A stretch of DNA of 64,000 nucleotides, taken from contig NZ_SNXY01000006.1 of NCBI RefSeq assembly GCF_004362745.1, positions 496,001 through 560,000 on the forward strand. Reading direction: 5' to 3'. This DNA is from Oharaeibacter diazotrophicus (GTDB lineage: Bacteria > Pseudomonadota > Alphaproteobacteria > Rhizobiales > Pleomorphomonadaceae). A program made the translations under genes and the position numbers. Under the pieces are notes generated by a model. The model was not told where the DNA came from and ran no database searches. It saw only the letters and a list, made by a program, of their open reading frames with translations. Shown one piece after another: positions 4,274-58,321 of the stretch (positions within the stretch are counted from its first letter, which is position 1; every line of letters begins with the position of its first letter).

Positions 4274-5215
4274 TCAGTTCGCCGCACGCACCCTTTCGCG
4301 ATGGGCGGTGTAGAGCCCGCTCGCCGCGATGACGGCGATGCCGGCGATCGTCCAGGCGGTCGGCAGGATGCCGAACACCAGGTAGGAGAACAGGCAGGCG
4401 GTCGGCAGCTGCGTGTAGGAGAAGGGCGCGATCAGCGAGGCCGGCGCGCGCCGGTAGCCGAGCACGACGCAGACGTGACCGAGGGTCGAGAACAGGCCGC
4501 TCGCCAGGATGGCCGGCAGGTCGTCCAGGCTCGGCGTCACCCAGACGAAGGGCATCGCCACCGAGAGCACCAGCAGCCCGACTACCGACGACCACACCAG
4601 CGTGGTTTCCGGCGCATCGGCCGGCATCTTGCGCGTCAGCACGGTGCCGAAGGCACCGACCGCCGCCGACAGGATCGGCAGCAGCGCGGCGAATTGGAAC
4701 GCGTCCGAGCCCGGCCGCACGATCAGCATCACCCCGCAGAAGCCGACCAGCCCGGCCATCCAGCGCCGCATCCCCACCGTCTCGCCGAGCAGCGGGATCG
4801 ACAGCGCCGTCACGAACAGCGGCGACAGGAAGGCGATCGCGGTGTTCTCCGCCACCGGCAGGCTGCCCAGCCCGACGATGAACAGCGCTCCGGCCCCCGC
4901 CAGCGCCGCCCCGCGCGTCACCTGCAGCCCGCGCGCCCGCGCCACCAGCCCGGTCGGGCCGCGGGTGACCAGCACCAGCGGCACCATCAGCGAGGCGAAC
5001 AGCAGGAAGCGCAGGAAGGTGATCTCGATGCCGTGCAGCGTGTCCGCCAGCGTCTTCGCCGCGATGTCGCCGGCGCAGAAGAACACGGTGGAGGCGACGA
5101 TGAACGCGATCGCCGGCAGCGTTCCGGTGGGAACGGCCGGCGCGGCGAGGCGCGGAACGGACGGCAGAACGGGGGCGACGTCGGCCGTGGCGGCGGCCGC
5201 GGAGGGAGGGCTCAT
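4274..5215 (-). CDS. DMT-superfamily (EamA) transporter
   Basis: A 313-residue inner-membrane protein with about ten hydrophobic helices in two repeated EamA halves (first half with SLPVAENTAIAFLSPLFV, second with YRRAPASLIAPFSY), after a 30-residue Ala/Pro-rich N-terminal tail. Such proteins export or import small metabolites; the substrate cannot be read from the sequence. The gene stands alone. A LacI-like palindrome lies 18-31 nt upstream of its start, which may regulate it. Confidence 0.85.
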   Translation of the reverse strand: MSPPSAAAATADVAPVLPSVPRLAAPAVPTGTLPAIAFIVASTVFFCAGDIAAKTLADTLHGIEITFLRFLLFASLMVPLVLVTRGPTGLVARARGLQVTRGAALAGAGALFIVGLGSLPVAENTAIAFLSPLFVTALSIPLLGETVGMRRWMAGLVGFCGVMLIVRPGSDAFQFAALLPILSAAVGAFGTVLTRKMPADAPETTLVWSSVVGLLVLSVAMPFVWVTPSLDDLPAILASGLFSTLGHVCVVLGYRRAPASLIAPFSYTQLPTACLFSYLVFGILPTAWTIAGIAVIAASGLYTAHRERVRAAN

Positions 5216-5232
5216 GGCGGGGAGACCGTGAC

Positions 5233-5246
5233 TTGAAACGCTTCAA
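5233..5246. promoter_or_regulatory. Palindrome resembling a LacI-family operator
   Basis: TTGAAACGCTTCAA has 5-nt perfect arms around a central CG, the hallmark of LacI/GalR-type operators. It lies 18 nt upstream of the DMT transporter ATG on the minus strand, a position where a repressor would block transcription or translation start. No LacI-family gene is in the window. The match is by eye only. Confidence 0.35.
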
Positions 5247-5556
5247 TCTTGTACGCCGATCCGTGGCGGATCCAAGGCCGAATCGCTCCGGCGAACCGCC
5301 CCCCAGTCATGCGCGGTCGGCATGACACTTTACGGATCCTGCCAACCCTTTGTTTACGGTCGGTTACGGCAGCGCGGGCGGAACGGTCGCGGCCTGCGTC
5401 GGTCTGGTCCGACAATCGGCGCAATTGCGCCTAAGATGCAGGCAGTCCGCCGCCGCGCCGGGCAGTTCCGGCGAGGGGGCGGGAAACGTCGGGGCGGCCC
5501 GCGTGTTGGACACGCGGAGGCTTCCGCTTCCGCCATCCTCGTGCCCGGAGAACACC
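5247..5556. other. Intergenic region without recognised gene
   Basis: About 310 nt between the divergent DMT transporter and the proline-rich protein. It includes a somewhat AT-richer stretch around 5318-5370 (CTTTACGGATCC, CCTTTGTTTACGG) that could hold a promoter for the rightward gene. No conserved coding frame or strong hairpin was seen. Confidence 0.5.
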
Positions 5557-49495: not shown

Positions 49496-49521
49496 AAAGG
49501 CCGGGCGGAGGCCCGGCCTTT
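49496..49521. terminator. Bidirectional terminator between lysR and hydrolase
   Basis: AAAGGCCGGGC (49496-49506), loop GGAG, GCCCGGCCTTT (49511-49521). A-run on the left and T-run on the right suit both convergent genes. Confidence 0.85.
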
Positions 49522-49551
49522 CGGAGCGGTGTCGTCACGACGACGCGAGCG

Positions 49552-50205
49552 TCACTCGGCGTCGGCCATCGCCAGACGGCGGTCGAGATAGCCGCCGCAG
49601 GTGTCGATCAGCTCGTCCACCTTCTGGTCGAAGAAGTGGTTGGCGCCCTCGATCACCTTCTGGTCGATGACGATGCCCTTCTGGGTCTTCAGCTTGTCGA
49701 CCAGCGCCTGGACGTCCTTGGTCGGGACGACCTTGTCGACGTCGCCGTGGACGATCAGGCCCGACGACGGGCAGGGGGCGAGGAAGGAGAAGTCGTGCAG
49801 GTTGGCCGGCGGCGCGATCGAGATGAAACCCTCGATCTCCGGGCGGCGCATCAGGAGCTGCATGCCGATCCAGGCGCCGAAGGAGAAGCCGGCGACCCAG
49901 CAGGACCGCGCGTCCGGGTGAATGGTCTGCACCCAGTCGAGCGCCGAGGCGGCGTCGGAGAGCTCGCCGGCGCCGTGGTCGAACTGGCCCTGGCTGCGCC
50001 CGACGCCGCGGAAATTGAACCGCAGGACCGCGAAGCCGCGCTCCTTGAACATGTAGAACAACCGGTAGATCACCTGGTTGTTCATCGTGCCGCCGAACTG
50101 CGGGTGCGGATGCAGGATCATCGCGATCGGCGCGTTGCGGCCCTTGGCGGGCTGGAAGCGCCCCTCGATGCGGCCGGCAGGGCCGTTGAAGATCACCTCG
50201 GGCAT
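49552..50205 (-). CDS. Alpha/beta hydrolase (serine aminopeptidase-like)
   Basis: A 217-residue alpha/beta hydrolase. Landmarks: AMILHPHPQFGGTMNNQVIY, FNFRGVGRSQG, nucleophile elbow GFSFGAW with the Ser, LIVHGDVDKVVP with the acid and GANHFF with the His. Proteins of this type act on small esters or lipids. Start is ATG at 50205 (MPEVIFNGPAGRIEG). It is divergent from the suf operon and shares the ICE-box region. Confidence 0.9.
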   Translation of the reverse strand: MPEVIFNGPAGRIEGRFQPAKGRNAPIAMILHPHPQFGGTMNNQVIYRLFYMFKERGFAVLRFNFRGVGRSQGQFDHGAGELSDAASALDWVQTIHPDARSCWVAGFSFGAWIGMQLLMRRPEIEGFISIAPPANLHDFSFLAPCPSSGLIVHGDVDKVVPTKDVQALVDKLKTQKGIVIDQKVIEGANHFFDQKVDELIDTCGGYLDRRLAMADAE

Positions 50206-50302
50206 CGGACCTCTTCGTTTTCCGGGCGTTGATCGGGGGACGGCGGCATACGGTGTAATGCTTAGCCGCCCTTGACGGAGCACCGCCCGAGCCGGTAGTT
50301 TG

Positions 50303-50319
50303 TTTAGAACAATTCGAAA
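50303..50319. promoter_or_regulatory. ICE-like box (Irr site) upstream of the suf operon
   Basis: TTTAGAA-CAA-TTCGAAA matches the iron-control-element pattern TTTAGAA-N3-TTCTAAA with one mismatch. Irr binds such sites in alphaproteobacteria when iron is scarce. It lies 180 nt before the first suf gene and 98 nt before the divergent hydrolase start. The identification is by eye. Confidence 0.6.
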
Positions 50320-50498
50320 CTGAACCCGTCGGGAACGGGTTCGCCGCTCGCGTCTGCACTGGCCTGCCGCCGGGTCCGCCGTCAAGGAAAATCGGTGGTC
50401 CGCGGGCTCGCCCGGGCCGGCATCCGGGCTAAGATGTGGGGTGCGCCGCGCCGATGTCGAGGCCGGCGCCCGTCGCTGCCACCCGCGGAACGGAGCCG

Positions 50499-51674
50499 AT
50501 GGCCGAGGAACGCCTCTACATGGACTGGAACGCCGGCGCACCCGCGCGGCCGTCCGTGCGCGCCCTCGTCGCCGACCTCCTGACGCGGACCGGCAACCCG
50601 TCGTCCGTCCACGCCGAGGGTAGGGCCGCCCGGGCCGCCGTCGAGGCGGCGCGGCGCGAGATCGCGGCGCTGGTCGGCGCGGAGGCCAAGGGCGTAACCT
50701 TCACCTCCGGCGGCACCGAGGCGTCGGTCACCGTGCTCGCGCCGGACTGGACCCTGTTCGGCCGGCCGCACCGCTTCGACCGCCTGCTGGTCTCCGCCGT
50801 CGAGCATCCCTCCGTCGCCCGCGGCGGCCGCTTCCCGGCCGATCGGGTCGAGACGGTGCCCGTGGACGGCGACGGCGTCGTCGACCTCGGCGCGCTCGAC
50901 CGCCGGCTCGGCGAGATCGCGGCCGCGGGCGAGCGGGCGATCGTCTCGGTGATGCTCGCCAACAACGAGACCGGCGCCGTCCAGCCCGTCGCCGAGGTCG
51001 CCCGCGTCGGCCGCGCCCACGGCGCGCTGGTCCACGCGGACGCGGTGCAGGCCGCCGGCCGGATGGCCGTCGACCTAGCGGGCCTCGGCGTCGACGTACT
51101 GACGCTGTCGGCCCACAAGATCGGCGGCATCCAGGGTGCGGGCGCGATCGTGCGCGGGGCGCACGGCTTCGCCTTCCCGCCGCTGCTGACCGGCGGCGGA
51201 CAGGAAGGCTTCGCGCGCGCCGGCACCGAGAGCGTCGCCGCGATCGCCGCCTTCGGGCTCGCCGCCCGCGAGGCGCTCGCCGAGATCGCGGAGATGCCCG
51301 CCGTCGCCGCCCGCCGGGACCGCATCGAGGCGGCGATCCGGGCGGCGGCGCCGTCGGCGGCGATCTTCGCGGCGGGAGCGGCGCGGCTCCCGAACACCAC
51401 GGCCTTCGCGATTCCCGGCCTTCCCGCCGAGACCGCGCTGATCGCCTTCGACCTTGCCGGCATCGCGCTCTCCGCCGGCTCGGCCTGTTCGTCCGGCAAG
51501 GTGCGCCCGAGCGGCGTGCTGACGGCGATGGGCGTGCCGGAGGCCCTCGCCAAGGGCGGCCTGCGCGTCTCGATCGGCCCGACGACCGACGACGCCGACG
51601 TCGACCGTTTCGCCGCGACATTCGCCCGGATCAACGCCGACATGACCAAAAGGCACGGGACGAAGGTCGCCTGA
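50499..51674 (+). CDS. Cysteine desulfurase (NifS/IscS-like, first desulfurase of suf operon)
   Basis: A 391-residue PLP enzyme that takes sulfur from cysteine. Landmarks: [27 protein letters not shown], the PLP lysine in LSAHKIGG and the persulfide Cys in [11 protein letters not shown]. These are of the group I (IscS/NifS) type, unlike the group II SufS later in the operon. Start is ATG at 50499 ([15 protein letters not shown]). It is the promoter-proximal gene, as in other alphaproteobacterial sufS-B-C-D-S clusters. Confidence 0.92.
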
Positions 51675-51733
51675 GTACCTATATGAACGTCTCAATTCCC
51701 ACGGTCCTTGAAACCGCGCGGATGGAGTGGAAG

Positions 51734-53203
<1,470 letters not shown>

Positions 53204-53207
53204 TGCG

Positions 53208-53576
53208 ATGGAAGCGGCCCCCGCGACCGACCACGTCAACCACGGGATCTACGGCTCGGAGGAGGAGGCGCTCCAGGGCCTGATCGATCATCTGGTGGCG
53301 GCGGCGGATCCGGAAGCCATCTGGCTGTTCGGAAGCAGAGCGCAACGCAATCACCGCCCGGACAGCGACTTCGACCTTCTCGTCGTCGCCAAGCCGGGCG
53401 CGCCCTGGGGCAGCGACGACTACGAATTCATCTACAGGGCGACGAGCGGGACGCGCATCGGATGCGACGTCGTGCCCGTCGGCCACGATGACTTCGAAGA
53501 GGCGGCGACACTTCACACGACGTTGGTCTCGATCGTCGTGGACGAGGGTCGGAAGATCTACGAGGCGCGCTCGTGA
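53208..53576 (+). CDS. MNT-type nucleotidyltransferase (possible antitoxin of HEPN/MNT pair)
   Basis: A 122-residue minimal nucleotidyltransferase. The motif GSRAQ (42-46) followed by DSDFD (Asp52, Asp54, Asp56) is the GS...DxD metal and nucleotide site; a third acidic residue lies in GCDVVPVG. In MNT-HEPN pairs this enzyme modifies or binds the HEPN partner. It begins 4 nt after the sufB stop and its stop overlaps the HEPN start as GTGA. Its presence inside the suf operon is unusual. Confidence 0.9.
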   Translation: MEAAPATDHVNHGIYGSEEEALQGLIDHLVAAADPEAIWLFGSRAQRNHRPDSDFDLLVVAKPGAPWGSDDYEFIYRATSGTRIGCDVVPVGHDDFEEAATLHTTLVSIVVDEGRKIYEARS

Positions 53577-53995
53577 CCGCCGACTCCCTTCGTCTGAAGC
53601 GCATCAGGTCGTTCGTGACCCTGGCCGGGCGGGAACTCAGGGCCGCCGAACTCCTGGCCGCGGAGTTGCCCGCCGAGGCGACGTTTCAGGCGCAGCAGTC
53701 GGTCGAGAAGCTGCTTCGTGCCGTCATCGAAGCCGAGGACAAGAGAGCCGGCACCACGCACGACATTCGTCAACTCGCCGATCTGATCGGCTCCCAGCAC
53801 GCACTTCGTCAATCCTTCCTGGCGCTCGAAGATCTGAGTTCCGCGGCGACCCGCTACCGATACCCGTCGGGCTCGGGCGGTCTCGCGGCCCCTCCGACTT
53901 CCGACGAACTCCGGACCACGCTGGCCGCGATCAGGTCGCTCACGATCGACGTGATCCGCTTCCTCGAAACGCGCCAGCTCATCTCGAAAGGCTGA
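53573..53995 (+). CDS. HEPN-domain protein (partner of MNT nucleotidyltransferase)
   Basis: A 140-residue helical protein. HEPN landmarks: LAGRELRAAELLAAE, QAQQSVEKLLRAVIEA and RAGTTHDIRQLADLI. The R-x4-H ribonuclease-type motif is RAGTTH, but the Tyr that follows in HepT-type toxins (RxxxxHxY) is Ile here. It could be an RNase toxin, a helper or an inactive partner. It starts with a GTG overlapping the MNT stop and ends 3 nt before sufC, so it is read on the suf transcript. Confidence 0.87.
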   Translation: MTADSLRLKRIRSFVTLAGRELRAAELLAAELPAEATFQAQQSVEKLLRAVIEAEDKRAGTTHDIRQLADLIGSQHALRQSFLALEDLSSAATRYRYPSGSGGLAAPPTSDELRTTLAAIRSLTIDVIRFLETRQLISKG

Positions 53996-53998
53996 ACC

Positions 53999-54748
53999 AT
54001 GCTCGAAATCCGTAACCTGCACGCCCGCATCGGCGACCGCGAGATCCTGCGCGGCATCGACCTCACCGTGAAGCCCGGCGAGGTGCACGCCATCATGGGG
54101 CCGAACGGCTCCGGCAAGTCGACGCTGTCCTACATCCTCGCCGGCAAGGACGACTACGAGGTCACCGAGGGCGACATCCTGCTCGACGGCGAGTCGATCC
54201 TCGAGATGGAGCCGAACGAGCGCGCCACCGCCGGCCTGTTCCTCGCCTTCCAGTATCCGATCGAGATCCCCGGTGTCGCCTCGATGACCTTCCTGCGCGC
54301 GGCCCTCAACGCCAAGCGCAAGGCCAACGGCGAGGCCGAGATCTCGACGCCGGACTTCATGCGCGTGGTCAAGGAGGCCGCCGGCCGGCTGAACATCTCG
54401 TCCGAGATGCTGAAGCGCCCGGTCAACGTCGGCTTCTCCGGCGGCGAGAAGAAGCGCAACGAGGCGCTGCAGATGGCGCTGCTCCAGCCGAAGATCGCCA
54501 TCCTCGACGAGACCGATTCCGGCCTCGACATCGACGCGCTCAAGGTGGTGGCCGAGGCCGTCAACGCGCTCCGCTCGCCCGACCGTGCCTTCGTGGTGAT
54601 CACCCACTACCAGCGCCTGCTCGACCACATCGTGCCGGACATCGTGCACGTGCTCTCGGCCGGCCGCATCGTGCGCACCGGCGGCCCGGAACTCGCCCAC
54701 GAGCTCGAGAAGAACGGCTACGCGGCCTATGTCCAGGACGCGGCGTGA
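53999..54748 (+). CDS. sufC: Fe-S assembly ATPase SufC
   Basis: A 249-residue ABC-type ATPase. Walker A is GPNGSGKST, the signature FSGGEKKRNE, Walker B IAILDETDSGLD and the switch His in VVITHYQRLL. SufC powers the SufBC2D scaffold. In the usual order sufC follows sufB directly; here two genes lie between. AAAGG lies 7 nt upstream, within the end of the HEPN gene. Confidence 0.97.
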   Translation: MLEIRNLHARIGDREILRGIDLTVKPGEVHAIMGPNGSGKSTLSYILAGKDDYEVTEGDILLDGESILEMEPNERATAGLFLAFQYPIEIPGVASMTFLRAALNAKRKANGEAEISTPDFMRVVKEAAGRLNISSEMLKRPVNVGFSGGEKKRNEALQMALLQPKIAILDETDSGLDIDALKVVAEAVNALRSPDRAFVVITHYQRLLDHIVPDIVHVLSAGRIVRTGGPELAHELEKNGYAAYVQDAA

Positions 54749-54752
54749 GGAC

Positions 54753-56084
54753 ATGAGCGACATGGTCAGCCCCACCCCCCTGCGCACCCCGGCCGAGGAC
54801 GCGCTCCTGAAGCGCTTCCCCGCCGAGAAGGACGCGCTGCCCGGCGCTCCGGCGATCGCCGCCGCCCGCGAGGCCGCGTGGGCCGGCTTCGCCGCCGCCG
54901 GCCTGCCGCACCGCCGCGTCGAGGACTGGAAGTACACGGACCTGCGCGCCAACCTGCGCTCGATCGCCCCGGCCGCCGGCCCGGCCGACCTCGGCCGCGT
55001 CCGCGCGCTCGCGGAGGCGGTGCCGGGCGACGGCGCCCGCCGGATCGTGGTCGCCAACGGGCGCGTGGTCGCCGAGCTCTCCGATCTCGCCGACCTGCCG
55101 GCCGGCGTCACGGTCTCCCCGCTCGCCGACGCGCTCGCCGCCGGCGACGGTGCCGTGCTCGACCTGCTGCCCGAGGCGGCCGACAACGCCGCCGTCCGCC
55201 TCAACACCGCCTTCGCCACCGACGGCGTGGTGATCCGCGTCGCGGACGGCGTGGTGCTCGACCGCCCGTTCGAGATCGCGCACGTGGTCGCCGGCGCGGC
55301 CGCCGTCGCCACCGCGGTGCGCAACGTGGTCGTGGTCGGCGCCGGCGCGAAGGCGACGGTGATCGAGACGGTGGAGGCGACCGCCGCCGCCGCGCACCAG
55401 ACCAACGTGGTGACGGCGCTCGTCGTCGGCGACGACGCCCACGTCGACCACATCCGCCTGCAGATCGAGCCGGTGGAGGCGCTGAGCCTCACCACCGTGT
55501 CGGCGACGATCGGCGCGCGGGCGACGCTGCACACGTTCAACGCCGCGCTCGGCGGCGCCGTGGCGCGCGCGCAGGTCTACGCCCGCTTCGCCGGCAAGGG
55601 CGCCACCGGCGGCTTCCGCGGCATCACCATGCTGTCCGGCCGCCGCCACGGCGACACCACGCTCGTCGTCACCCACGACGCCGAGGCCTGCGAGAGCCGC
55701 GAGCTCTACAAGGCGGTGATCGACGACGAGGCGCGCTCGGTGTTCCAGGGCCGCATCAACGTGCCGGCGCACGCCCAGAAGACCGACGCCCGGATGATGA
55801 CCGCCTCGCTGCTCCTCTCCGAGGGCGCCGAGGCGAACGCCAAGCCCGAGCTCGAGATCTTCGCGGACGACGTCCAGTGCGGCCACGGCGCCACCTGCGG
55901 CGCGCTCGACGACGACCTGCTCTTCTACCTCCTCGCCCGCGGCATCCCGCGCGTCGAGGCGGAGAAGATGCTGATCCTCGCCTTCCTCGGCGAGGCGATC
56001 GACGAGATCGAGAACGAGGCCGTCCACGACGCCCTGATCCACCGGGTCGAGGCGTGGCTGGAACGGCGCACGCAGGGCGCCTGA
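54753..56084 (+). CDS. sufD: Fe-S scaffold subunit SufD
   Basis: A 443-residue partner of SufB. Landmarks: RRVEDWKYTDLRA near the N-terminus, a beta-helix core, and FADDVQCGHGATCGALDDDLLFYLLARGIPR with the conserved Cys and His. ATG at 54753 is 5 nt after the sufC stop; an overlapping earlier ATG at 54729 is possible. It belongs to the SufBCD complex. Confidence 0.95.
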   Translation: MSDMVSPTPLRTPAEDALLKRFPAEKDALPGAPAIAAAREAAWAGFAAAGLPHRRVEDWKYTDLRANLRSIAPAAGPADLGRVRALAEAVPGDGARRIVVANGRVVAELSDLADLPAGVTVSPLADALAAGDGAVLDLLPEAADNAAVRLNTAFATDGVVIRVADGVVLDRPFEIAHVVAGAAAVATAVRNVVVVGAGAKATVIETVEATAAAAHQTNVVTALVVGDDAHVDHIRLQIEPVEALSLTTVSATIGARATLHTFNAALGGAVARAQVYARFAGKGATGGFRGITMLSGRRHGDTTLVVTHDAEACESRELYKAVIDDEARSVFQGRINVPAHAQKTDARMMTASLLLSEGAEANAKPELEIFADDVQCGHGATCGALDDDLLFYLLARGIPRVEAEKMLILAFLGEAIDEIENEAVHDALIHRVEAWLERRTQGA

Positions 56085-56127
56085 ACGTCGAGCTCTTTCC
56101 GGTCGGGGCACGGAGCCCCGACCGCCC

Positions 56128-56160
56128 CGCGGTCGACCCTCCCCACGAGGGGCCGGGTCG
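56128..56160. repeat. REP-like palindrome fragment between sufD and sufS
   Basis: GACCCTCCCCACGAGGGG-type C-rich element, a short member of the family at 7.5-7.8 kb and 43.5 kb. It forms a small hairpin in the 104-nt gap and could tune the downstream message level. Confidence 0.55.
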
Positions 56161-56188
56161 GAGACCGCCCGACCGTCCGGGATCAACG

Positions 56189-57427
56189 ATGAACGGCGAG
56201 ACCCCCCATTCCTACGACGTCGAAGCCGTCCGGCGCGACTTTCCGATCCTGTCGCGGACGGTCTACGGCAAGCCGCTGGTCTATCTCGACAACGGCGCCT
56301 CGGCACAGAAGCCGCGGGCGGTGATCGAGCGGATCACCCGGGCCTACGAGGAGGAATACGCCAACGTCCACCGCGGGCTCCACTTCCTCTCGAACGCGGC
56401 GACGGAAGCCTATGAGGAAGCGCGCGAAATCGTCCGGCGCTTCATCAACGCACCGTCGGTCGACGAGGTGATCTTCACCCGCTCGTCGACCGAGGCGATC
56501 AACCTCGTGGCAGCGTCCTGGGGCGGGGCGAACCTCGAGGAGGGCGACGAGGTGGTGCTCTCGATCCTCGAGCACCATTCCAACATCGTGCCGTGGAACT
56601 TCCACCGCGAGAAGAAGGGCGTGGTGATCAAGTGGGCGCCGATCCTCGAGGACGGCACCTTCGACCTCGAGGCCTTCGAGGCGCTGATCGGCCCGCGCAC
56701 CAAGCTGGTCGCCATCACCCACATGTCGAACGTCACCGGCACGATCGTGCCGATCGCCGACGTGGTGCGGATCGCCCATTCGCGCGGCGTCAAGGTGATG
56801 GTGGACGGCAGCCAGGGCGCCGTGCACCTGCCGGTCGACGTCCGGGCGCTCGGCTGCGACTTCTACGTCTTCACCGGCCACAAGGTCTACGGCCCCACCG
56901 GCATCGGCGTGTTGTGGGCGCGGCGCGAACTGCTCGAGGCGATGCCGCCGTGGCAGGGCGGCGGCGAGATGATCCTCGAGGTCACCGAGGACTTCGTGAC
57001 CTACAACGAGCCGCCGCACCGCTTCGAGGCGGGCACGCCGCCGATCGTGCAGGCGATCGGGCTCGGCGCGGCGCTCGCCTACATGGAGAGCCTCGGCCGC
57101 GAGGCCATCCTCGCCCACGAGGAGGACCTGCGCGACTACGCCATGGCCCGGCTTTCGGAGATGAACTCCATCCGCATCTTCGGCACCACGCGGGAGAAGG
57201 GCGCCATCGTCGCCTTCGAGATGAAGGGCGCGCACGCTCACGATGTCGCGACCATCATCGACCGCTCTGGCGTCGCGGTGCGCGCGGGCACACATTGTGC
57301 GATGCCGTTGCTGTCGCGCTTCGGCGTGACGTCCACCTGCCGCGCGTCCTTCGCGCTCTACAACACGAGGGCCGAGGTCGACGCGCTGGTGGCGGCGCTG
57401 CGCAAGGCCGAGACCATGTTCCGATGA
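56189..57427 (+). CDS. sufS: Cysteine desulfurase SufS
   Basis: A 412-residue PLP enzyme of group II. Landmarks: VYLDNGASAQKP, NVHRGLHFLSNAATEAYE, SILEHHSNIVPW, the PLP lysine in FTGHKVYGPTG and the active Cys in RAGTHCAMPLL. It supplies sulfur to SufBCD; SufE or SufU is absent from the window. The stop overlaps a possible ATG of the sufT-like gene (ATGA). Confidence 0.97.
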   Translation: MNGETPHSYDVEAVRRDFPILSRTVYGKPLVYLDNGASAQKPRAVIERITRAYEEEYANVHRGLHFLSNAATEAYEEAREIVRRFINAPSVDEVIFTRSSTEAINLVAASWGGANLEEGDEVVLSILEHHSNIVPWNFHREKKGVVIKWAPILEDGTFDLEAFEALIGPRTKLVAITHMSNVTGTIVPIADVVRIAHSRGVKVMVDGSQGAVHLPVDVRALGCDFYVFTGHKVYGPTGIGVLWARRELLEAMPPWQGGGEMILEVTEDFVTYNEPPHRFEAGTPPIVQAIGLGAALAYMESLGREAILAHEEDLRDYAMARLSEMNSIRIFGTTREKGAIVAFEMKGAHAHDVATIIDRSGVAVRAGTHCAMPLLSRFGVTSTCRASFALYNTRAEVDALVAALRKAETMFR

Positions 57428-57435
57428 GGTCCGAC

Positions 57436-57819
57436 ATGAACGAGCAGGCGACGACGGCGGAGACGACGCCGAACGCCGCGGCGGTGGCCGGATCGGCCAT
57501 CCCCGCGGACGAACTGGCCCGCGTCACCGACGACATCATCCAGGCCCTGAAGACGGTCTACGACCCGGAGATCCCGGCCGACATCTACGAACTCGGCCTC
57601 GTCTACAAGATCGACATCGACGACGACCGCTTCGTCTCGATCGACATGACGCTGACCGCCCCTGGCTGCCCGGTCGCCGGCGAGATGCCGGGCTGGGTCG
57701 AGAACGCCGTCGGCGCCGTCGCCGGCATCACCGGCGTCAAGGTCTCGATGGTGTTCGATCCGCCGTGGACGCCGGACCGGATGAGCGAAGAAGCGCAGGT
57801 GGCGTTGAATTGGTATTGA
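57436..57819 (+). CDS. SufT-like MIP18/DUF59 Fe-S assembly protein
   Basis: A 127-residue protein with the DUF59 domain: VYDPEIPADIYELGLVYKIDI, MTLTAPGCPVAGEMP with the functional Cys, and VFDPPWTPDRMSEEAQ. The family helps Fe-S protein maturation when demand is high. ATG at 57436 has GAGGT 5 nt upstream; an ATG at 57424 overlapping the sufS stop is possible. It is the usual companion of sufS in alphaproteobacteria. Confidence 0.92.
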   Translation: MNEQATTAETTPNAAAVAGSAIPADELARVTDDIIQALKTVYDPEIPADIYELGLVYKIDIDDDRFVSIDMTLTAPGCPVAGEMPGWVENAVGAVAGITGVKVSMVFDPPWTPDRMSEEAQVALNWY

Positions 57820-57825
57820 TGTGAC

Positions 57826-57918
57826 GGCAGTCGGCAGTCGGGCTTCGGCAGTCGGTTGCCCCAGCGGACGGCGCGGCTGCAACCGCGTCCGACTGCCGAA
57901 GCCCGAAGCCCGACTGCC
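57826..57918. repeat. Inverted heptamer element between sufT-like and sufA-like genes
   Basis: Left arm 57826-57855 contains GGCAGTCGGCAGTCGG and CGGGCTTCGGCAGTCGG; right arm 57889-57918 holds the reverse complement of the last 17 nt. The arms use the same CTGCCGA/TCGGCAG heptamer as the arrays at 43.7 and 44.9 kb. They could form a long hairpin in the suf mRNA. Confidence 0.8.
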
Positions 57919-57940
57919 GCACCCTCCAGGAGTTCCCCAC

Positions 57941-58321
57941 ATGGCCATTGCCAGACGCAAGCTCACCGTGATGTCCGTCACCGAGGCGGCGGCGGAGCGG
58001 GTGCGCGAGATCATCGAGAACGCCGACGAACCCGTGGCGGGCGTCCGGGTCGGCGTCAAGAACGGCGGCTGCGCCGGGATGAGCTACACCATGGACCTCG
58101 CCCGCGAGGCGCCTGCGGGCGACGAGCGGATCGACGAGCACGGCGTCACCGTGTTCGTGGAGCCCAAGGCCGTGCTGTTCCTGCTCGGCACCGAGATGGA
58201 CTTCGAGCGCACCACGCTGAAGACCGGCTTCGTCTTCCGCAATCCGAACCAGGTGAGTGCCTGCGGCTGCGGCGAGAGCGTGTCGCTGAAGCCGGCGGAC
58301 CCCGAGGCGATCGGGGCCTGA
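57941..58321 (+). CDS. sufA: A-type Fe-S carrier (SufA/HesB family)
   Basis: A 126-residue carrier protein with the three conserved cysteines of the A-type family: NGGCAGMSY and SACGCGESV. It receives clusters from the scaffold and passes them to target proteins. CCAGGAG lies 8 nt before the ATG. It ends the suf operon, 121 nt after the sufT-like gene with an inverted repeat between. Confidence 0.94.
   Translation: MAIARRKLTVMSVTEAAAERVREIIENADEPVAGVRVGVKNGGCAGMSYTMDLAREAPAGDERIDEHGVTVFVEPKAVLFLLGTEMDFERTTLKTGFVFRNPNQVSACGCGESVSLKPADPEAIGA

Follow-up and report, generated by a model that had tools for sequence, protein, structure and literature searches.

The window, as we call the whole stretch of 64,000 nucleotides of Oharaeibacter diazotrophicus that was analysed, carries a suf gene cluster in the order nifS-like desulfurase, sufB, MNT, HEPN, sufC and sufD (Table 1). 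The two genes between sufB and sufC, coding for a minimal nucleotidyltransferase (MNT) and a HEPN protein, are codirectional with the suf genes, and the gaps along sufB/MNT/HEPN/sufC amount to 4, -4 and 3 nt. The original prediction, according to which the sufB-sufC order is broken by an MNT and a HEPN gene, was borne out by the ORFs and by Pfam and NCBIfam matches, and the spacing it gave (4 nt, a GTGA overlap and 3 nt) is exact by the ORF coordinates. Its family assignment likewise holds, with MNT matching PF18765 (E 1e-8) and PF01909 (E 1.7e-7, 32 bits versus a gathering threshold of 21) and HEPN matching PF05168 (E 2.7e-10, 40.9 bits versus 22), above the curated cut-offs. GC3 is 86 for MNT and 81 for HEPN versus 95-99 for nifS, sufB, sufC and sufD of the window.

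Table 1. Features of the suf locus, with ORF positions in the numbering of the window
Feature	Position	Strand	Basis or remark
ICE/Irr-box-like palindrome TTTAGAACAATTCGAAA	50303..50319		upstream of the nifS-sufBCD operon
NifS/IscS-type cysteine desulfurase	50436..51674	+	PF00266; best NCBIfam TIGR03402, under its cut-off; opens the operon, start codon uncertain
sufB	51683..53203	+	SufB NF008773, 908 bits
MNT (minimal nucleotidyltransferase), 122 aa	53208..53576	+	PF18765, PF01909; ATG start
GTGA overlap of MNT stop with HEPN start	53573..53576	+	
HEPN protein, 140 aa	53573..53995	+	PF05168 (HEPN-T); GTG start
sufC	53999..54748	+	SufC TIGR01978, 358 bits; ATG start
sufD, downstream gene	54729..56084	+	assigned by SufB-SufD similarity

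The 64 kb were scanned with the ICE/Irr-box consensus TTTAGAANNNTTCTAAA. The palindrome TTTAGAACAATTCGAAA departs from it by 1 mismatch and is the sole match with 3 or fewer mismatches in the 64 kb, where 0.07 such matches are expected and at least one occurred in 6 of 100 shuffles. An Rfam scan of positions 49500-58000 revealed no RNA element at gathering thresholds.

Recurrence, selection and history of the pair

After removal of duplicates, MNT-HEPN was found between sufB and sufC in 12 Hyphomicrobiales genomes, namely the window, Oryzibacter, G380, L029, L031, L032, L033, L034, L035 (Gellertiella hungarica), L036, L044 and L201. These carriers span at least three family codes (f1, f23 and f42), of which f23 is Rhizobiaceae, since it contains Gellertiella. 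HEPN is intact in 11 of the 12, L201 included, and the expectation that the insert would recur in related genomes with open frames was upheld. A one-off or decayed insert was rejected, given 11 further carriers of which just one has a broken HEPN. Both frames are real genes, as homologous pairs lie at this position in 11 further genomes and close pairs have low dN/dS. The insert is real, recurrent, specific in its place and of a known family. MNT precedes HEPN, overlapping or abutting it, in all 10 carriers measured (window included), with an overlap of 1-35 nt in eight of the nine others and direct abutment in one. In G380 (L005:757-1092) an additional ORF of 111 codons, with no Pfam match, lies between sufB and MNT.

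For loci obtained in genome searches, ~1.5 kb of flanking sequence was inspected in each direction. Among 60 genomes searched, there was one match beyond the window's own, in Oryzibacter oryziterrae (G006; Hyphomicrobiales, Pleomorphomonadaceae at NCBI, with the family code f1 of the window's genome), where the pair sits at sufB-sufC and is followed by a cupin gene. Within f1, 2 of 20 genomes carry the pair. Six matches were obtained from 397 sampled genomes of the order: those of the window, G006 and G380 (E 1.2e-28 or better) are all at sufB-sufC, and the remaining three (E 4e-12 to 4e-4) have no sufB or sufC within 1.5 kb. Among 297 sampled genomes of f23, the 5 matches with E < 1e-59 all lie at suf, and none of the 8 with weaker values (E 4e-24 to 2e-6) does. 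The class sample of 385 genomes had matches in 12, with a suf location in the window only and 7e-31 as the best value of the others. By tblastn with the window HEPN, intact copies at suf reach E 2e-22 or better; for copies of the order outside suf the values are 5e-13 or worse. A first contig scan with a single HEPN sequence gave no matches; the scan of named species with three HEPN sequences returned 48 loci, and all 9 labelled Hyphomicrobiales, Oryzibacter, Rhizobium or Gellertiella have the arrangement sufB-MNT-HEPN-sufC. None of the other 39 contains sufB, and three of them have ABC proteins 27-30% like SufC. The pair is absent from sufB-sufC in the more distant relatives found. A protein search of the window's own genome found no second HEPN of this type, and titles and abstract openings of open-licence papers contained no MNT-HEPN in a suf operon. 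The loci L012 and L030 belong to one genome.

Close MNT-HEPN pairs are under purifying selection, as judged from their codon substitutions. NG86 dN/dS was 0.04-0.09 for MNT and 0.017-0.05 for HEPN across three Rhizobium pairs and 0.13 and 0.065, respectively, for L035/L036, and YN00 gave 0.14 for MNT of L033/L034. Distant pairs have higher values (0.15-0.44 where dS could be estimated, with dS > 1 and near saturation); L029/L031 gave 0.25 and 0.15, and MNT of window/L030 gave 0.44. Identity of MNT versus HEPN was 66 versus 51% and 58 versus 37%, with HEPN the more divergent, and 45 versus 45%, with the opposite tendency in the Rhizobium trio. In L044 (Rhizobium sp. FY34, 5001-5380) HEPN has lost the loop bearing H63 to a deletion that also puts it out of frame, and MNT stays open; such a loss, a single case from a draft genome, would be expected of HEPN as the costly partner.

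Trees were built from 10 of the 12 carriers, with L044 (broken HEPN) and L201 (found later) left out. The tree of SufB (C-terminal 250 residues) and SufC groups the window with Oryzibacter (100/97), whereas the tree of MNT and HEPN pairs the window with G380 (96/93) and joins Oryzibacter to Rhizobiaceae (93/92). AU tests reject window plus Oryzibacter for MNT and HEPN (p = 4.4e-4, and 8.4e-3 without the planctomycete outgroup, whose row is long) and window plus G380 for suf (p = 1.7e-5). A history in which the pair simply descended along with suf in every carrier was rejected on this AU conflict. From the disagreement of the two trees, the pair probably reached the sufB-sufC slot on two or more occasions or was exchanged within it; ancient duplicates lost one after another could also produce such a conflict. 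The five Rhizobiaceae rows cohere in both trees with an identical split into two groups, and the clade common to both covers two Rhizobiaceae genus codes (g205 and g219), which fits vertical descent and long residence in the slot.

Cargo at the sufB-sufC junction and the Irr-like box

The junction survey comprised 139 loci, of which 20 belong to the family of the window (window and Oryzibacter included) and 119 do not. These 119 came from the best ~150 of 388 genomes by sufB score, 129 of which had eligible loci (not of the window's family and not G380); 120 were taken, one at a contig end and the eight lowest-ranked being dropped, and removal of the L166 stretch, which is without sufC, left 119. 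The sufB-sufC gap was at most 160 nt in 80 and at least 300 nt in 38 of the 139 loci, those outside the window's family being from the best ~150 of 388 genomes. Where both junctions were measured (136 loci, same selection), at least 300 nt were present at sufB-sufC in 35 and at sufC-sufD in none, with a Fisher p of 4.7e-12 that is too small because related genomes are not independent. Not every suf junction accepts cargo, as follows from the absence of such spacing at sufC-sufD.

Assigned by similarity to representatives, the 38 cargo loci (those outside the window's family again from the best ~150 of 388 genomes) comprised cupins in 14, a small coiled-coil-like ORF in 6, one GIY-YIG family in 3, glycosyltransferase 9 in 3, MNT-HEPN in 2 (window and Oryzibacter) and 5 unlike any representative; further families were Uma2, DUF559, ABM and a second GIY-YIG type. 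Cargo matching a representative is all on the suf strand, from which the representatives themselves were drawn. By their gene content, the surveyed loci show the sufB-sufC junction to be a general cargo slot.

Cupins are the commonest recognised cargo (L012, L024, L111, L119, L125, L136, L161, L175, L176, L178, L186, L188, L190 and L195). Nuclease-like cargo (GIY-YIG, Uma2, DUF559) lies between sufB and sufC at L133, L141, L148; L146; L136; and L144. An inverted repeat GCCTC..GAGGC was seen in 15 of 16 sufB-sufC gaps of up to 300 nt in the window's family (L010, L011, L013, L015-L023, L025-L027) and in 0 of 85 other short gaps. It mostly reads GCCTCCGCC..GCGTCGAGGC and is placed just before sufC; the first hit of the pattern in L010 falls elsewhere. 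The repeat is missing from the window, Oryzibacter and the cupin carrier L024, and L028 retains it with the paired changes GTCTC..GAGAC. From this distribution, an intergenic hairpin at sufB-sufC seems to have given way to cargo.

Genes at this junction have been reported before. The gene momL of Muricauda olearia lies between sufB and sufC and was reported as co-transcribed with suf, under iron deficiency (PMC5484670); the junction is the same, whereas the cargo described there is an AHL lactonase and a putative ADP-ribosylglycohydrolase rather than MNT-HEPN. An ORF between sufB and sufC was likewise described in Caulobacter, where operon junctions were amplified by RT-PCR (PMC11475020), and RSP_0439 of Rhodobacter sphaeroides is tabled between sufC and sufB with similar ratios (PMC3413700).

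The insert might be a passive hitchhiker, a short codirectional gene tolerated and kept for a while with no suf link and little effect. The diverse cargo of at least 300 nt in 38 of 139 loci (those outside the window's family from the best ~150 of 388 genomes), the patchy presence of the pair and the tree conflict would all be expected of it. We nevertheless regard it as very unlikely, given the low dN/dS in close pairs, the clade shared by both trees across the Rhizobiaceae genus codes g205 and g219 and the sufC-sufD junctions that reach 300 nt in 0 of 136 loci of the same selection.

An Irr-like box with no more than 2 mismatches precedes sufB by ~1.4 kb in all nine other carriers with enough flank, so that it is present in 10 of 10 carriers scanned; the stretches of G380 and L201, the other two of the 12, were too short. 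Single-base shuffles gave a match with 3 or fewer mismatches anywhere in the 10-kb locus in 9 of 200 (L030) and 22 of 200 (L032) cases. By consensus match, the operon lies behind an Irr/ICE-like box, which supports the original prediction of Irr/iron control to that extent. Its further step, from the position in suf to a role linked to iron, is not supported: the same junction holds many unrelated cargo genes, and position alone is therefore no proof that the pair acts in iron metabolism. Growth arrest on iron starvation or phage defence, as proposed there, is a hypothesis that position does not imply.

According to PMC3413700, Irr acts as a repressor under iron depletion in the species investigated. 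On one transcript, an iron signal would move MNT and HEPN together, and since the transcript would be shared, a change at the promoter alone would not shift the ratio of toxin to antidote. For HEPN to be released, MNT activity, ATP or protein turnover would have to change; ATP dependence has been proposed for a Legionella HEPN-MNT pair (PMC11586414).

These data also bear on a Suf-dedicated regulator, by which the pair would tune Fe-S assembly or couple the Fe-S or iron state to growth, a reading we consider unlikely. Dedication to Suf would explain a constant location of close relatives in the suf operon, and all close Hyphomicrobiales relatives found do sit at sufB-sufC; the box in every carrier scanned and the momL precedent of a co-transcribed gene at this junction under iron deficiency (PMC5484670) agree with it as well. 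However, the junction holds many unrelated genes, 18 of 20 family members do without the pair, and the Irr-like box belongs to the operon and not to the insert.

Families and conserved residues of MNT and HEPN

The MNT protein contains a GS-x10-DxD motif (G42, S43, D54, F55, D56) and a third Asp, D87; none of G42, S43, D54, D56 and D87 varies among 17 sequences. Its structural model (mean pLDDT 90.7) has MntA 7bxo as the best PDB match (Foldseek E 1.3e-4), with the MNT 8xeo within the first eight, and also matches 1no5 (HI0073) and ANT enzymes. Among PADLOC models, MNT matches PDC-S09 candidates (best E 1.5e-9, partial) and HEPN none at E <= 1.

In 9 of 10 loci measured, the suf-embedded MNT starts at most 20 nt past the end of sufB, the MNT of G380 following another ORF, and these MNTs have no extra N-terminal segment. 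Six of the seven close non-suf MNT relatives (L037-L040, L211-L213) have ~45-65 additional in-frame N-terminal codons, and L212 is without them. The segment reads TPxITFRV... in L038-L040 and L211 and more loosely in L037 and L213; it counts for about four lineages, since L038-L040 are near-identical. This putative segment has no Pfam match. That it binds DNA would be a guess, and its absence from suf-embedded MNTs is possibly a sign of control handed over to the suf promoter, a pattern that would also suit the Suf-dedicated regulator.

In HEPN, Q41, Q42, E45, K46, H63 (53759-53761) and R96-Y97-P98 (53858-53866) are invariant in 17 of 17 homologues. The R-x4-H motif that the original prediction had seen in RAGTTH did not survive comparison: position 58 is P in 11 homologues, A in 3 and R, L and V in one each, and with R58 in just 1 of 17 an RNase motif of this kind was rejected as chance. 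The absence of the HepT tyrosine, also part of that prediction, stands, as residue 65 (two past H63) is I or L in all 17, never Tyr, and no H follows five past R96. It is explained by the protein belonging to another HEPN family, PF05168, which has in Y97 an invariant tyrosine of its own.

Profile searches with the HEPN sequence find 1ufb, 1wol and 1o3u; in the two alignments inspected, H and RYP correspond. The HEPN model (mean pLDDT 95) gave the top VIA-align Z values with 1ufb (15.1), 4nqf (14.8), 2hsb (14.4), 3o10 (14.1), 1wol (13.1) and 1o3u (12.9), above HepT 6m6w (10.4); helical bundles reach Z ~13 without kinship, and the HEPN-T assignment is carried by the sequence matches. A structure missing from the VIA-align list was not taken as absent. 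Foldseek likewise ranked HEPN-T structures first, the best at E 1.2e-3 and none at E <= 0.001. The window HEPN has its fold in common with the HEPN-T structures TM0613 (1o3u), TT1696 (1ufb), ST0689 (1wol) and AF0298 (2hsb) and the sacsin HEPN (3o10), for which the structure titles give no function.

HEPN-T members that lost the motif H are described in PMC3710099, where a second conserved H upstream may pair with a basic residue; by analogy, H63 and R96 would fit this arrangement. The invariant Q42 and E45 have the spacing of Q44 and E47 of the Legionella HEPN, proposed as a Mg-dependent RNase site (PMC11586414), the likeness being one of spacing alone. HEPN is also possibly an inert ligand binder.

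Comparison with known systems places the window pair, by domains and motifs, among the Class II (PF05168/PF01909) MNT-HEPN pairs of PMC7641770. As described there, Class II likewise combines a PF05168 HEPN, without RX4HXY and with a conserved tyrosine, with a GSX10DXD MNT; 9,583 sequences are counted, more prevalent in archaea and less in bacteria than Class I, and as of 2020 the class had no biochemistry, toxicity and AMPylation included. The passages on Class II in PMC7641770 describe no fixed neighbourhood, whereas the lineage considered here is placed in the Hyphomicrobiales suf operon. With the type VII HepT/MntA systems (Shewanella SO_3166/SO_3165, PMC7641770; Legionella, PMC11586414), as far as these accounts go, the pair has in common the two-gene module and the MNT fold and motif; the Class I HEPN is PF01934/PF08780 as opposed to PF05168 without RX4HXY. 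Membership of HepT/MntA was rejected on the missing RX4HXY and on the score with the MntA_antitoxin model NF047752 (33.9 bits versus a cut-off of 60). The pair may, by analogy, work like HepT/MntA from outside that family.

A different possibility is that of a two-subunit nucleotidyltransferase in which HEPN binds the substrate, as the helical half does in kanamycin nucleotidyltransferase; the pair would then modify a small molecule or another protein and be no toxin. HEPN is without a canonical R-x4-6-H RNase motif, nucleotidyltransferases are among the VIA-align matches of its model (3c18, Z 11.8; ANT 6un8, Z 9.4) and among the structural matches of the MNT model (1no5, ANT), and PMC3710099 describes HEPN as the substrate-binding domain of such enzymes. 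The invariant Q41, Q42, E45, K46, H63, R96 and Y97, on the other hand, fit an active or modified site, although a binding site too, and HEPN diverges more than MNT in several comparisons, if not in all, as toxins may. We hold this enzyme to be doubtful, though worth considering.

A putative antidote and toxin pair on the suf transcript

Our preferred reading, to which we give an even chance, is that of a Class II pair with MNT as antidote and HEPN as toxin-like partner, riding the iron-regulated suf transcript as cargo of the sufB-sufC slot. MNT, encoded first, is predicted to be a competent nucleotidyltransferase. It would most likely AMPylate HEPN at the invariant Y97 or hold HEPN in a complex. 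Unmodified HEPN would bind or cut RNA or nucleotides via H63 and R96 or via Q42 and E45, and would thereby slow growth. In the Hyphomicrobiales lineage, the pair would travel as cargo in the sufB-sufC junction, presumably co-transcribed with suf behind the Irr-like box. Purifying selection appears to maintain it, and it has probably crossed between families into this one slot. What the location offers may be a transcript that is hard for the cell to lose. The patchy presence (2 of 20 genomes in the family and 3 close matches among 397 in the order) also fits dispensable cargo.

A bolder version, which we regard as decidedly unlikely, makes the suf-embedded lineage a dedicated module between Fe-S assembly and growth. 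It would have shed the N-terminal control segment and be expressed from suf/Irr only, and AMPylation of HEPN would read ATP or Fe-S capacity and throttle RNA or translation when assembly fails.

With one defined operon and an iron-control box, the suf-embedded lineage offers a natural setting in which to probe Class II function. That sufB-sufC takes cargo in Hyphomicrobiales and sufC-sufD does not, in the surveyed loci, fits scattered reports such as momL and the Caulobacter ORF, and the cargo slot shows where to seek more genes coupled to Fe-S assembly.
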